Shown here: positions 3,978-62,700 of the stretch, piece by piece
Layout of the letters: every line of letters starts with the position of its first letter
Numbering within the stretch: position 1 is the stretch's first letter
NCBI RefSeq assembly: GCF_022662195.1
Contig: NZ_JAKMCS010000015.1
Span: 1 to 64,000, forward strand
Origin: Aestuariivivens insulae
GTDB taxonomy: Bacteria; Bacteroidota; Bacteroidia; Flavobacteriales; Flavobacteriaceae
Direction: 5' to 3'
DNA: 64,000 nucleotides
Notes under the pieces: generated by a model
Seen by the model: the letters and a program-made list of their open reading frames with translations, nothing else
What the model was told of the DNA's origin: nothing
The model's database searches: none
Translations under genes and position numbers: made by a program

Positions 3978-4316
3978 ATGAGCTATACTATAAAAAGCAG
4001 AATATGGATTGAATCTAACGGACACGTACTATTAGGTGAAGGCCGGGTACAATTGTTAAAAGCTATTGCACAAACAGGATCGCTGTCTAAAGCCGCTAAA
4101 GCTTTAAACCTATCCTATAAAAAGGCATGGCATCTTTTGGATTCGGTTAACCAATCGGCTAAAAAACCAGTAACCATAAATAGTACAGGAGGTAAAAATG
4201 GTGGTGGCACAACATTAACCGATTATGGCAAGTCCTTAATAAAGACCTTTGATGACATCAACCAAAATTGCTGGGATTTTTTAGATAAAGAACTCGAAAG
4301 AATAGAACATCTATAA
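3978..4316 (+). CDS. ModE-type winged-helix regulator without molybdate-binding domain
   Basis: A 112-residue LysR/ModE-like DNA-binding protein. The helix-turn-helix covers roughly residues 22-60, with SLSKAAKALNLSYKKAW as the recognition region. A wing segment with a Gly-rich turn (GGKNGGG) follows, then a C-terminal helix. Classical ModE has two further molybdate-binding (TOBE/Mop) domains; these are absent, so direct sensing of molybdate is unlikely unless another protein supplies it. It probably regulates the Moco operon or molybdate uptake. Its stop codon touches the repeat cassette that separates it from the rest of the operon. Confidence 0.8.
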   Translation: MSYTIKSRIWIESNGHVLLGEGRVQLLKAIAQTGSLSKAAKALNLSYKKAWHLLDSVNQSAKKPVTINSTGGKNGGGTTLTDYGKSLIKTFDDINQNCWDFLDKELERIEHL

Positions 4317-4405
4317 GTGCCTAAAGTTAAAAATACTTAAAGTGCCTAAAGTTTGGAGTACTTAAAATGATTAAAGTCAATGAATAAAAAATATAAAGTT
4401 AAAGC

Positions 4406-4534
4406 ATGACCAATAAAGAATTTGCTACAAGTTTAGAAAAACAACTTATAACTCTAAGTACTCTAAATACTCTAAGTACTTTAGGCACTTATAACTCTAA
4501 GTACTCAAACAATAAACCAAAATATGACCAATAA
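4406..4534 (+). pseudogene. Truncated N-terminal copy 1 of the four-helix-bundle gene
   Basis: Encodes 42 residues: MTNKEFATSLEKQL, then in-frame Leu-Ser/Asn/Gly-Thr triplets from the 9-bp array, then NSKYSNN before a stop. The stop overlaps the start of copy 2. Whether it is translated is unknown. It may be a decoy leader or simply a repeat unit. Confidence 0.5.
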
Positions 4535-4637
4535 AGAATTTGCTGCAAGTTTAGAAAAACAACTTTTAACTCTAAGTACTCCAAGTACTCCAAGTACTTT
4601 AGGCACTTTTAACTCTAAATACTTTAGGCACTTTTAA
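4524..4637 (+). pseudogene. Truncated N-terminal copy 2 of the four-helix-bundle gene
   Basis: Encodes 37 residues: MTNKEFAASLEKQL, then LTLSTPSTPSTLGT from the repeat array, and an FNSKYFRHF end. Its frame through the array is the same as in the other copies. It lies 30 bp upstream of the intact gene. Confidence 0.5.
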
Positions 4638-4667
4638 CTTTAAGTACTATAACAATAAACTAAAAAT

Positions 4668-5018
4668 ATGAACAATAAAGAATTTGCTGCAAGTTTAGAA
4701 AAGCGAACTGTAAAGTTTGCCATTGCCACGATTAATTTATCTACGAATTTGCATAATACTCCTGAAGCTTTGGTTCTTCGAAATCAACTCACTAAATCGG
4801 GCACAAGTATAGGCGCAAATTATAGAGAGGCCAATCGTTCCCGTAGCAAAAAAGATTTCAAAAACAAGATAAAAATTAGTCTAAGTGAAGCTAGTGAAAC
4901 AGATTATTGGCTTGAAATTATTGAGGAGCTGAATTGGGGAAACAATAATATAAACGAATTAAGAAAGGAAGCAAAAGAATTGATAGCTATTTTCACTTCA
5001 ATTGCGAATAAATTATAA
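4668..5018 (+). CDS. Four-helix-bundle protein (23S rRNA intervening-sequence / bAvd-like family)
   Basis: The 116-residue product is all helical, with the family hallmarks: an N-terminal RTVKFAIATINL-like helix, QLTKSGTSIGANYREANRSRS as the conserved central turn, and KDFKNKIKISLSEASETDYWL. The family includes proteins encoded in 23S rRNA intervening sequences and the Avd accessory protein of diversity-generating retroelements, but no reverse transcriptase or variable repeat was found here. The molecular role is unknown; relatives form pentameric barrels that bind nucleic acid. The gene is the only complete copy in a block of N-terminal repeats and splits the Moco operon. Confidence 0.8.
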   Translation: MNNKEFAASLEKRTVKFAIATINLSTNLHNTPEALVLRNQLTKSGTSIGANYREANRSRSKKDFKNKIKISLSEASETDYWLEIIEELNWGNNNINELRKEAKELIAIFTSIANKL

Positions 5019-5112
5019 AAATGTATAGTCTAACAATAAGTACTTGAAGTGCCTTAAGTTAAAAGTACTTAAAATGATTAAAGTCAATGAATAAAAAATA
5101 TAAAGTTAAAGC

Positions 5113-5217
5113 ATGACCAATAAAGAATTTGCTACAAGTATAGAAAAGCAACTTATAACTCTAAGTACTTTAGGCACTTTAGGCACTTTTAACTCTAAGT
5201 ACTTTAGGCACTTTTAA
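5113..5217 (+). pseudogene. Truncated N-terminal copy 3 (second repeat unit)
   Basis: Encodes 34 residues: MTNKEFATSIEKQL, ITLSTLGTLGT from the array, then FNSKYFRHF. Its upstream 48 bp are nearly identical to those of copy 1 (offset 707 bp), which places it at the head of the second unit. Confidence 0.5.
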
Positions 5218-5246
5218 CTTTAAGTACTCAAACAAAAACCAAAAAT

Positions 5247-5429
5247 ATGACCAATAAAGAATTAGCTGCAAGTTTAGAAAAACAACTTATAACTCCAAGT
5301 ACTTTAGACACTTTAGGCACTTTAAGTACTCTAAATACTCCAAGTACTTTAGGCACTTTAGGCACTTTAGACACTTATAACTTTAAACTTATTACATGTT
5401 ACAAAAGGAATACATCTATTTATTTTTAG
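5247..5429 (+). pseudogene. Truncated N-terminal copy 4, overlapping the tauE start
   Basis: Encodes 60 residues: MTNKELAASLEKQL followed by the longest Leu/Pro-X-Thr run in the cassette, then a short unrelated tail. It overlaps the first 34 nt of the TauE/SafE gene in another frame. Where copy 2 is followed by the full gene, this copy is followed by the permease, as if the full gene was lost or never copied here. Confidence 0.5.
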
Positions 5430-6136
5430 CCATACTACCCATCGTATCGTTTTTATATTCAAGTGTTGGGCATGGTGGTGCCAGTGGCTATTTAGCACTC
5501 ATGGCATTATTTTCTTTTGCACCGGAAACCATGAAACCTACTGCTCTACTGTTAAACTTGTTTGTCGCTGGAATTTCATTTTATTATTATTTCAGAAGTG
5601 GTTTTTTCAACAAAAAACTGTTTGTATCGTTCGCGTTAACATCCATCCCCTTGGCCTTTTTAGGAGGTACTATTGAAATTGATGCCTCCATCTATAAAAA
5701 AATATTAGCGGTACTATTGGTCTTCGCCATTTTAAAAATGCTCAACGTTTTTGGAAAAGAAAATGGCACCATAAAACCAGTAAAACTATGGCAAGGATTG
5801 GTTATTGGAGGTGTTATTGGTTTTTTCTCTGGGTTAATAGGCATTGGCGGCGGCATTATTTTAACGCCAATAATATTATTGTTGCACTGGGGCAGAATGA
5901 AAGAAGCTGCAGCCGTTTCGGCACTTTTTATCTGGGTTAACTCTGCCTCTGGTCTTATAGGGCAATTAAGCAGTGGGGTGACTTTAGAAGCAGACTCATT
6001 CTTATTGGTTGCCATTGCATTAATTGGCGGGGTTTTAGGTGGCTACCTTGGCAGTAAAAAAATAAACAACACCCAACTAAGATACATCCTTGCAGGTGTA
6101 TTACTTATAGCCTGCTTTAAATTGATTTTTACTTGA
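5396..6136 (+). CDS. TauE/SafE-family (TSUP) membrane permease
   Basis: The 246-residue protein has about eight hydrophobic segments. Two internally related glycine-rich motifs are present, SSVGHGGASGYLAL near the N-terminus and GLIGIGGGIILTP near the middle, typical of TSUP transporters of sulfite, sulfonates, thiosulfate or related organic anions. It lies inside the Moco run, and its stop overlaps the mobA start (TGATG). Transport of a sulfur compound or oxyanion linked to Moco synthesis is an inference. No substrate can be assigned from sequence. Confidence 0.8.
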   Translation: MLQKEYIYLFLAILPIVSFLYSSVGHGGASGYLALMALFSFAPETMKPTALLLNLFVAGISFYYYFRSGFFNKKLFVSFALTSIPLAFLGGTIEIDASIYKKILAVLLVFAILKMLNVFGKENGTIKPVKLWQGLVIGGVIGFFSGLIGIGGGIILTPIILLLHWGRMKEAAAVSALFIWVNSASGLIGQLSSGVTLEADSFLLVAIALIGGVLGGYLGSKKINNTQLRYILAGVLLIACFKLIFT

Positions 6137-7466: not shown

Positions 7467-7509
7467 TGTTATTTTATGAGTTATTAAGGGTGTACGACAT
7501 AGCATTAAC

Positions 7510-7558
7510 GATTAACGATTAACGATTTATGATTTACGAACCAAGAGCCAAGAGCCAA
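7510..7558 (+). repeat. Array of seven GA-N5 heptamers
   Basis: Seven consecutive 7-bp units start with GA: GATTAAC twice, GATTTAT, GATTTAC, GAACCAA, GAGCCAA twice. They lie between moaE and the moaC-moaB fusion gene. The same heptamer grammar recurs at 8612, 53985, 59682 and 62624. Confidence 0.7.
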
Positions 7559-20797: not shown

Positions 20798-20967
20798 TTG
20801 GGCGTTACCCTGACGGTAAAGGTCAGGGTCGGGCTTTCCGTTACAATCTTTTTGTGCTTCACCTTTCGTTGCTTTGCATGGTGCGTTCAAAGAATATATA
20901 TATTATTTTCAACCTATGTTCAGGGCGACACAAAAAGGATTTTCACTTCAATCCCTAACGCAAACCC
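20798..20967. repeat. Long structured flavobacterial-type repeat between nirB and nirD
   Basis: The element begins GGGCGTTACCCTGAC and ends TAACGCAAACCC, so its ends are complementary (GCGTTA/TAACGC). Inside are ACCCTGAC-7 nt-GTCAGGGT (perfect 8-bp hairpin, 20807-20829) and AATCTTTTTGTG paired with CACAAAAAGGAT. Similar sequences with a GGGCGTT...TAACGC frame are, from memory, dispersed in many Flavobacteriia. Within the nir transcript it would fold into a large stem, which could set the nirB to nirD ratio. Confidence 0.65.
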
Positions 20968-53854: not shown

Positions 53855-53984
53855 GTGTTCAAATATACAACATTGCCTTTTGAAATTTGCATGATACTTT
53901 TTATTGAATCTACGGCATACATCATTTTAAAGATTGAAAGGATTGATAAAAATTGAAGGGATTGATAATGATGAAAACATTAAT

Positions 53985-54108
53985 GATTGAAGATTGAAGA
54001 TTGATGATTAACGATTAACGAAATTTGATTAACCGAACACTAAATACTGAATACTGATTACTGATTACTGATTACTGAACACTGAATACTGCGACTGAAC
54101 ACTGAAGG
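53985..54108 (+). repeat. Array of GA-N5 heptamers
   Basis: Heptamers drift stepwise: GATTGAA twice, GATTGAT, GATTAAC twice, then a short break, then GAATACT, GATTACT three times, GAACACT, GAATACT and GAACACT. This fills most of the 369-bp gap between tilS and the sigma-like gene. Confidence 0.7.
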
Positions 54109-54161
54109 GAAACGATGACTTGTCATCTATTTGGCTTAAAAAACCTTATGCAAAGTTGATA

Positions 54162-62612: not shown

Positions 62613-62623
62613 TACAGTACACT

Positions 62624-62700
62624 GATTACTGATTACTGATTACTGATCACTGAACACTGAGTACTGAACACTGAGTACTGAACACTGAGTACTGATTACC
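62624..62700 (+). repeat. Eleven perfect GA-N5 heptamers
   Basis: GATTACT three times, GATCACT, GAACACT, GAGTACT, GAACACT, GAGTACT, GAACACT, GAGTACT, GATTACC, without a single gap. GAACACT and GAGTACT alternate with a 14-bp higher-order period. Confidence 0.85.

Follow-up and report, generated by a model that had tools for sequence, protein, structure and literature searches.

What is a small gene of the IVP/S23 protein family doing between two genes of a molybdenum cofactor (Moco) gene cluster, and what are the inverted arrays of short repeats that surround it? The question is raised by a 64-kb stretch of the Aestuariivivens insulae genome (hereafter the window), in which the gene, partial copies of its own 5′ end and the arrays form a compact cassette with a ModE-domain gene on one side and a TauE-family gene on the other. 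We propose that this cassette represents a kind of small mobile element, in which an IVP gene lies between two inverted tandem arrays of short units, or arms, and in which gene and arms move together; we put the probability of this reading at roughly three in four.

Inverted arms around IVP genes

The window protein passes the curated hidden Markov model (HMM) cut-offs of both PF05635 (72.5 bits, cut-off 33.8) and TIGR02436 (91.1 bits, cut-off 24). AlphaFold2 (AF2) predicts a four-helix bundle with a mean predicted local distance difference test score (pLDDT) of 95.8, whose best match in the PDB is 2rld of the S23 family, with a template modelling score (TM) of up to 0.87; 2gsc matches the predicted fold at a TM of about 0.8. 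An earlier interpretation of the window from its letters alone (the sequence-only reading) had placed the gene in the four-helix-bundle family that includes rRNA intervening-sequence proteins, and that placement holds. The function of the family is not known, and one S23-family structure is reported to be a pentameric ring (PMC4990558). Members also occur inside cas loci (PMC3936711) and inside rRNA insertions of Candidate Phyla Radiation (CPR) bacteria (PMC11270868). Within the phylum of the window, 223 of 296 sampled genomes carry a member; the A. insulae genome itself holds five by sequence search and 14 by HMM, and the protein is basic in 194 of the 224 members examined.

At five loci of the A. 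insulae genome, each IVP gene lies between inverted short repeats whose sequence differs from locus to locus. We scored this layout by comparing the 200 nucleotides upstream of a gene with the reverse complement of the 200 nucleotides downstream; the threshold of 28 was set after the distribution in Flavobacteriaceae loci had been viewed, and the counts cover 115 of 116 such loci, L027 (a broken fragment) having been left out and L105 dropped for a short flank. The mean score of a gene's own flanks was 30.2, compared with 19.5 for mispaired flanks and a maximum of 21.4 in 2000 permutations, and the median was 28 in the inverted orientation against 19 in the direct one. A score of at least 28 was reached at 60 of the 115 IVP loci but at only 13 of 339 control genes drawn from 20 stretches of 20 kb and from the window (p 1e-29). 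Wider sets behaved similarly (12/30 loci of a phylum-wide HMM search, 16/23 named Bacteroidota and 42/52 loci of other phyla reached the threshold), each exceeding its own mispaired control (p 0.0005). These sets use 105 of 110 loci, two (L175, L211) having an early stop in the gene call and three having short flanks; the pattern was weakest among the best HMM scorers. The loci analysed combine those retrieved automatically with 80 more that were chosen, roughly by score, from a larger number of places.

The arms are often tandem arrays. A tandem score of at least 14 was found in 103 of 223 IVP flanks and in 4 of 339 controls, and 86 of the 103 strong arrays had a period of 7 or 14, 7 bp being the usual unit. 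The two arms of one element also score higher against each other than against the arms of relatives (33.1 vs 23.9; 100 of 134, p 1e-13). On these comparisons the gene-plus-inverted-arms layout recurs well above control in many bacteria; many but not all loci reach 28, and the pattern is therefore common rather than universal. Three loci (L100, L093 and L122) have a different arrangement, with long direct repeats shared by the flanks on the two sides of the gene (scores 275, 110 and 116).

Arm sequence follows protein clade

When loci at different sites were compared, a shared arm (score at least 28) was found in about 2% of pairs whose proteins were 25–40% identical, in 45% of pairs at 60–70% identity and in 65% at 70% identity or above; in the wrong polarity the last two classes gave 14% and 21%. 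Arm and protein likeness were correlated with one locus taken per site (Mantel r 0.32–0.37, p ≤0.0033), as they were within Flavobacteriaceae alone (r 0.27–0.36, p 0.002 in each of 20 draws), and the arm likeness between different sites of one genome was at background. In these comparisons, arm sequence goes with the relatedness of the protein and not with the host genome.

Two clades illustrate the coupling. Among proteins at least 52% identical to that of the window, GTGCCTA/TAGGCAC occurred in 13 of 20 loci compared with 2 of 204 others; this motif was picked from the window itself, and with the window excluded the count is 12 of 19. The clade includes metagenome bins labelled Deltaproteobacteria, Desulfobacterales, Auribacterota and Planctomycetota. 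In the clade of L005, another locus of the A. insulae genome, the 5′ arm was CAGT-rich in 26 of 29 loci and the 3′ arm ACTG-rich in 29 of 29, across seven site groups (L309 was omitted from this count).

This coupling bears on an alternative in which the arms are incidental: AT-rich intergenic DNA would often contain short-period arrays, and IVP genes would be passengers that happen to land in them. Arrays without a gene do exist in the window (at 7504, 53928, 54035 and 62621) and elsewhere in the genome, and bacterial heptamer arrays have been described without an IVP gene (PMC4679880). Control genes, however, rarely had matched inverted flanks (13/339) or strong arrays (4/339), the empty sites described below carry no such arrays, the arms track the protein clade across different sites, and 20 gene-less array loci were of one or nearly one orientation rather than inverted pairs. 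We consider incidental arms very unlikely, and the candidate was rejected on the controls and the clade coupling.

Insertion sites, orientation and carriers

IVP genes tend to lie along the direction of their surroundings. Both neighbours had the same sense as the gene at 107 of 114 loci, compared with 195 of 333 controls, and both were opposed to it at none of the 114 loci, compared with 40 of the 333 controls (two IVP loci and six controls without a neighbour call are omitted). Particular gaps could be compared in filled and empty form. Between nqrC and nqrD, one genome has the gene with its arms and three genus-mates have a few nucleotides. Between ModE and TauE, the cassette is absent from two genus-mates, and a third has another gene after ModE; the proposal of the sequence-only reading that a cassette with foldable arms had been inserted in a Moco operon is supported by this. 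Neither kind of empty gap contained such arrays; repeats present at the locus independently of the gene, which the same reading had named as evidence that would count against it, were not seen there. Comparison of genomes shows, then, that a given gap can occur both with and without the element. One empty ModE–TauE gap (L051) has a short CTGAAT-like stretch of another type, and the neighbouring gaps of the nqr operon, C/D (L016) and B/C (L019), hold related IVP genes in different genomes.

The ModE–TauE gap is also filled in six other genera by proteins 66–69% identical to that of the window. The closest relatives of the window protein (84, 76 and 75% identical) are located in other operons, and in the phylogenetic tree the window protein falls outside the group that contains the six other ModE–TauE copies (support 97/94). 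Tree and site pattern together fit either repeated use of one gap or the replacement of one copy by another.

An alternative reading of these sites is that the cassette is a regulatory or RNA-processing device, its arms forming a hairpin in the mRNA that uncouples expression of the two halves of an operon or serves autoregulation by the protein, with spread through ordinary inheritance and horizontal operon transfer. The strong sense bias within operons, the stable fold at the window (see below), the matching of arms within each element and the existence of gaps common to many loci, such as ModE–TauE in seven genera and atpA–atpG in a large group, would all agree with such a role; the close relatives in unrelated operons, the filling of nqr gaps B/C and C/D in different genomes, the empty sites without arms and the failure of the window copy to group with the other ModE–TauE copies do not. 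We regard a purely regulatory cassette as unlikely, and regulation and mobility are not mutually exclusive.

Plasmids and phages were considered as the main carriers of close relatives and were rejected, as the 72,556 plasmid records yielded only 25 matches and the 50,697 phage records only 2. Residence in rRNA was likewise not found for distant relatives: by Rfam, none of 20 loci from other phyla (20 of 80 loci scanned) lay in rRNA.

A proposed mobile element and the points against it

In the mobile element that we favour, the IVP gene and its arms would be co-transcribed with the host operon; the arms would form a long stem whose loop contains the gene, by analogy with an rRNA intervening sequence; the protein, which is basic and probably pentameric, would recognise the arms of its own clade; and gene and arms would be copied jointly into new operon gaps. 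Both the movement of the element and the recognition of arms by the protein are inferred.

Several points weigh against this interpretation and call for caution. The empty sites are comparisons between species, and movement was not observed; the 224 loci fall into 98 site groups, such that recurrent gaps could partly reflect vertical inheritance. Target-site duplications were inspected by eye only and none is claimed, nor are the exact boundaries of the element established. To our knowledge, no catalytic activity is known for the IVP family. Pairing remained below the threshold at 55 of 115 Flavobacteriaceae loci and at 18 of the 30 phylum-wide HMM loci, and only 6 of those 30 had a strong tandem array. 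At the window, the complete gene has no immediate 3′ arm of its own, the next array being of the 5′ type, and the folding of arms as RNA was computed for the window locus only.

Organisation of the window locus

The cassette starts at the stop codon of the ModE-domain gene and reaches almost to the TauE/SafE family gene (Table 1). Its repeats are confined to it: AAGTGCCTAAAGT, with up to one mismatch, occurs 14 times in the window, every time within 4315–5376, where 0.09 occurrences would be expected. The 5′-type arms at 4316–4377 and 5038–5084, each of which precedes one half of the cassette and which correspond to the flanking reverse-complement arrays of the sequence-only reading, pair with the downstream arrays at 74–84% in most long matches, and the halves appear to be a duplication, 5038–5212 being 86% identical to 4331–4505.

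Table 1. Features of the IVP cassette and its neighbours in the window.
Feature	Position	Strand	Remarks
ModE-domain protein gene, upstream neighbour	3978–4316	+	Cassette starts at its stop codon
5′-type arm, half 1	4316–4377		Units such as AAGTGCCTAAAGTT, reverse complement of 3′-type arrays
Truncated copy 1 of IVP gene 5′ end	4406–4450	+	Open reading frame (ORF) 4406–4534, 42 codons
3′-type array	4451–4511		9-bp units ACTCTAAGT / ACTTTAGGC
Truncated copy 2	4524–4568	+	ORF 4524–4637, 37 codons
3′-type array	4569–4649		Periods 9 and 25 bp
Complete IVP/S23-family four-helix-bundle gene	4668–5018	+	116 codons
5′-type arm, half 2	5038–5084		Reverse-complement match to downstream arrays
Truncated copy 3	5113–5157	+	ORF 5113–5217, 34 codons
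3′-type array	5158–5228		Repeat comparison
Truncated copy 4	5247–5292	+	ORF 5247–5429, 60 codons, overlaps TauE gene start at 5396
3′-type array, outer 3′ arm of whole cassette	5293–5390		Repeat comparison
TauE/SafE family gene, downstream neighbour	5396–6136	+	ORF and domain match

RNA folding of 4312–4513 gave a structure of −44.7 kcal/mol (z −4.66) that none of 200 shuffles equalled in stability. As regards the suggestion that a transcript could fold with its start codons in loops, the ATG at 4406 lies inside 47 enclosing pairs at the edge of the terminal loop, with its A paired and its U and G unpaired. Elsewhere in the window, the sole Rfam match at gathering score is a Flavo-1 small RNA (sRNA) at 20823–20964 on the minus strand.

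The four short copies

The 5′ end of the gene occurs five times with an ATG start (at 4406, 4524, 4668, 5113 and 5247), spanning 4406–5291. The repetition that the sequence-only reading described is thus real, and amounts to one complete gene and four copies of its first 12–13 codons within 886 bp. Compared with the complete gene, the short copies are identical at 36, 37, 36 and 36 of 42 nucleotides, and the 42-nucleotide pattern had four matches with at most three mismatches and none in 100 shuffles. That the copies run into 9-bp arrays was also correct and can be refined: likeness to the gene ends after codon 12–13, where the sequence becomes the 3′ repeat arm, and the reading frames stay open into arrays of 9- and 25-bp period.

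The tails of the copies scored 24–71 against the regions just 3′ of the stop codon in nine homologues and 12–18 against gene interiors; the short copies can therefore be read as internal-deletion derivatives. Against the 3′ side of the window gene itself the tails scored only 17–20, because the 3′ arm of that gene is missing. All four copies have one common junction, as well as common changes relative to the gene, and the common junction suggests a single deletion followed by tandem duplication. From alignment of these segments, the short copies would thus be a derivative in which the first 12–13 codons were joined to the 3′ arm and which was then tandemly amplified through the arrays, and they are probably not the working part of the element.

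The sequence-only reading had gone further, and had taken the repeated N-termini for the working part of a self-copying or template-like cassette that should recur in relatives. Such a cassette, akin to diversity-generating retroelements and with its template or target supplied by the repeated N-termini, would suit the genuine repetition of 5′ ends and the likeness of the predicted fold to Avd (TM about 0.6 with 4dwl and 8ub7 chains). However, among 116 Flavobacteriaceae loci, copies of the 5′ end near the gene were found at the window only (scores 67 and 62, the next best being 30), and the other 115 had none above background within about 1.5 kb, a result that the sequence-only reading had itself named as refuting its idea; the copies are structured as deletion derivatives; and no reverse transcriptase lies near the element, none being present among the ORFs listed in the first 12 kb of the window, as the same reading had observed, while the one partial RVT_1 match of the genome is at a contig end elsewhere. 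Confined to one locus among 116, the repeated 5′ ends do not sustain a template or retroelement reading, which we rejected and consider highly improbable.

Relationship to known systems

The nearest parallel is the 23S rRNA intervening sequence, in which an S23 gene sits in a stem loop that is cut out by RNase III (PMC4990558). The element resembles it in protein family, in small size and in having its gene within the loop of a stem made by inverted ends, and the intervening sequence has long been suspected of mobility. In Coxiella, heptamer repeats of varying number lie directly upstream of the S23p ORF (PMC4990558), a further likeness to the repeats described here. The differences are that the present element lies between protein-coding genes and that both of its arms are short-unit arrays that follow the protein clade. 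It is built like an rRNA intervening sequence, yet by location it is not a member of that class.

The REPIN/RAYT system (PMC3116915) likewise ties hairpin-forming inverted short repeats to one protein, and the gene-less repeats of the L005 arm type, or dialect, recall it. In contrast to that system, the IVP protein is a four-helix bundle and not a tyrosine transposase, the arrays have units of 7–10 bp and the gene-less arrays are not hairpins. No Y1 tyrosine transposase was found by the repeats, the only gene of the element being PF05635. Likely homology of PF05635 and Avd has been stated (PMC10053308), and the fold class is the same; in contrast to diversity-generating retroelements, the element has no reverse transcriptase and no apparent template or variable repeat. 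By their defining enzymes, the element is neither a diversity-generating retroelement nor a RAYT system. Miniature inverted-repeat transposable elements (MITEs) are internal-deletion derivatives of mobile elements, and the four short copies are like them in retaining both ends and losing the coding interior; unlike MITEs, they form a tandem cluster at the parent locus only and none was found dispersed, a search of the same genome with 4316–5395 having returned only short pieces elsewhere. Some of these pieces are intergenic, and L007 and L009 have inverted pieces.

Intergenic heptamers such as TAACTGA have been described from Cyanobacteria, Bacteroidetes and Beggiatoaceae, in which they are patchily distributed with "no mechanism evident" (PMC4679880). 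They are like the arms in being intergenic 7-bp arrays of patchy distribution, and the words "intervening", "helix bundle" and "S23" are absent from the main text of that paper. In the open-licence literature we found no description of inverted short-repeat arms around the IVP family, in agreement with the earlier suggestion that the cassette is of an undescribed type.

We give about even weight to a broader proposal, in which such elements would form a widespread mobile class outside transposons, introns and retroelements. A non-enzymatic four-helix protein and its arm dialect would co-evolve, the protein reading its own arms; the arms, of fixed polarity, would be carried across phyla; some gene-less heptamer arrays would be by-products; and the 23S rRNA intervening sequence would represent a branch of the class that resides in rRNA. 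The clade-specific pairing of protein and arm gives a common family that has no assigned function a direct and cheap binding test. If the protein binds its own arm, this would help to explain the patchy intergenic heptamer arrays, would place rRNA intervening sequences within a larger family, and would raise the question of how an element without a recognised enzyme moves between phyla.

Gene-less arrays

A trans-acting system resembling REPIN/RAYT, in which the protein would also spread or maintain gene-less arrays of its own dialect, is possible but doubtful. Among genomes that carry an L005-clade gene, 11 of 36 had two or more ACTGAWYACTGAWYACTGA array hits, compared with 6 of 163 genomes without such a gene (p 9e-6) and 5 of 75 genomes bearing other IVP genes (p 0.0025); both comparisons are uncorrected for phylogeny, and some of the hits counted are the arms of the genes themselves (all six listed in G093). 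In addition, of the IVP loci compared, the one closest to the window arrays at 54026–54110 and 62615–62700 is L005, which belongs to the same genome (scores 55 and 57, against a median of 16–17). The arrays at 7500–7545 and 53920–54020, however, are closest to the elements of other genomes. The window dialect shows a weak trans link: an exact 14-mer was found in 3 of the 10 genomes that carry a window-clade gene compared with 12 of 189 others (p 0.03), and in two of those three genomes all hits are at the gene itself. No IVP gene was found in the 20 array loci that were fetched; their orientation was single in 17 and nearly so in three, with no inverted pairs, which does not favour a trans-acting system resembling REPIN/RAYT either.

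Some further arrays are worth recording. Those at 54026–54110 and 62615–62700 are gene-less heptamer arrays of the ACTGATT and ACTGAAC types, and the intergenic arrays at 7504–7539 (ATTAACG type) and 53928–54016 (GATTGA type) have their best matches in the IVP elements of other genomes. At L008 of the A. insulae genome, the gap that follows an ftsW-like gene (identified by eye from its sequence) contains an array of the window dialect and no IVP gene; in two other genomes (L103 and L112) the same gap contains IVP genes with other arms.
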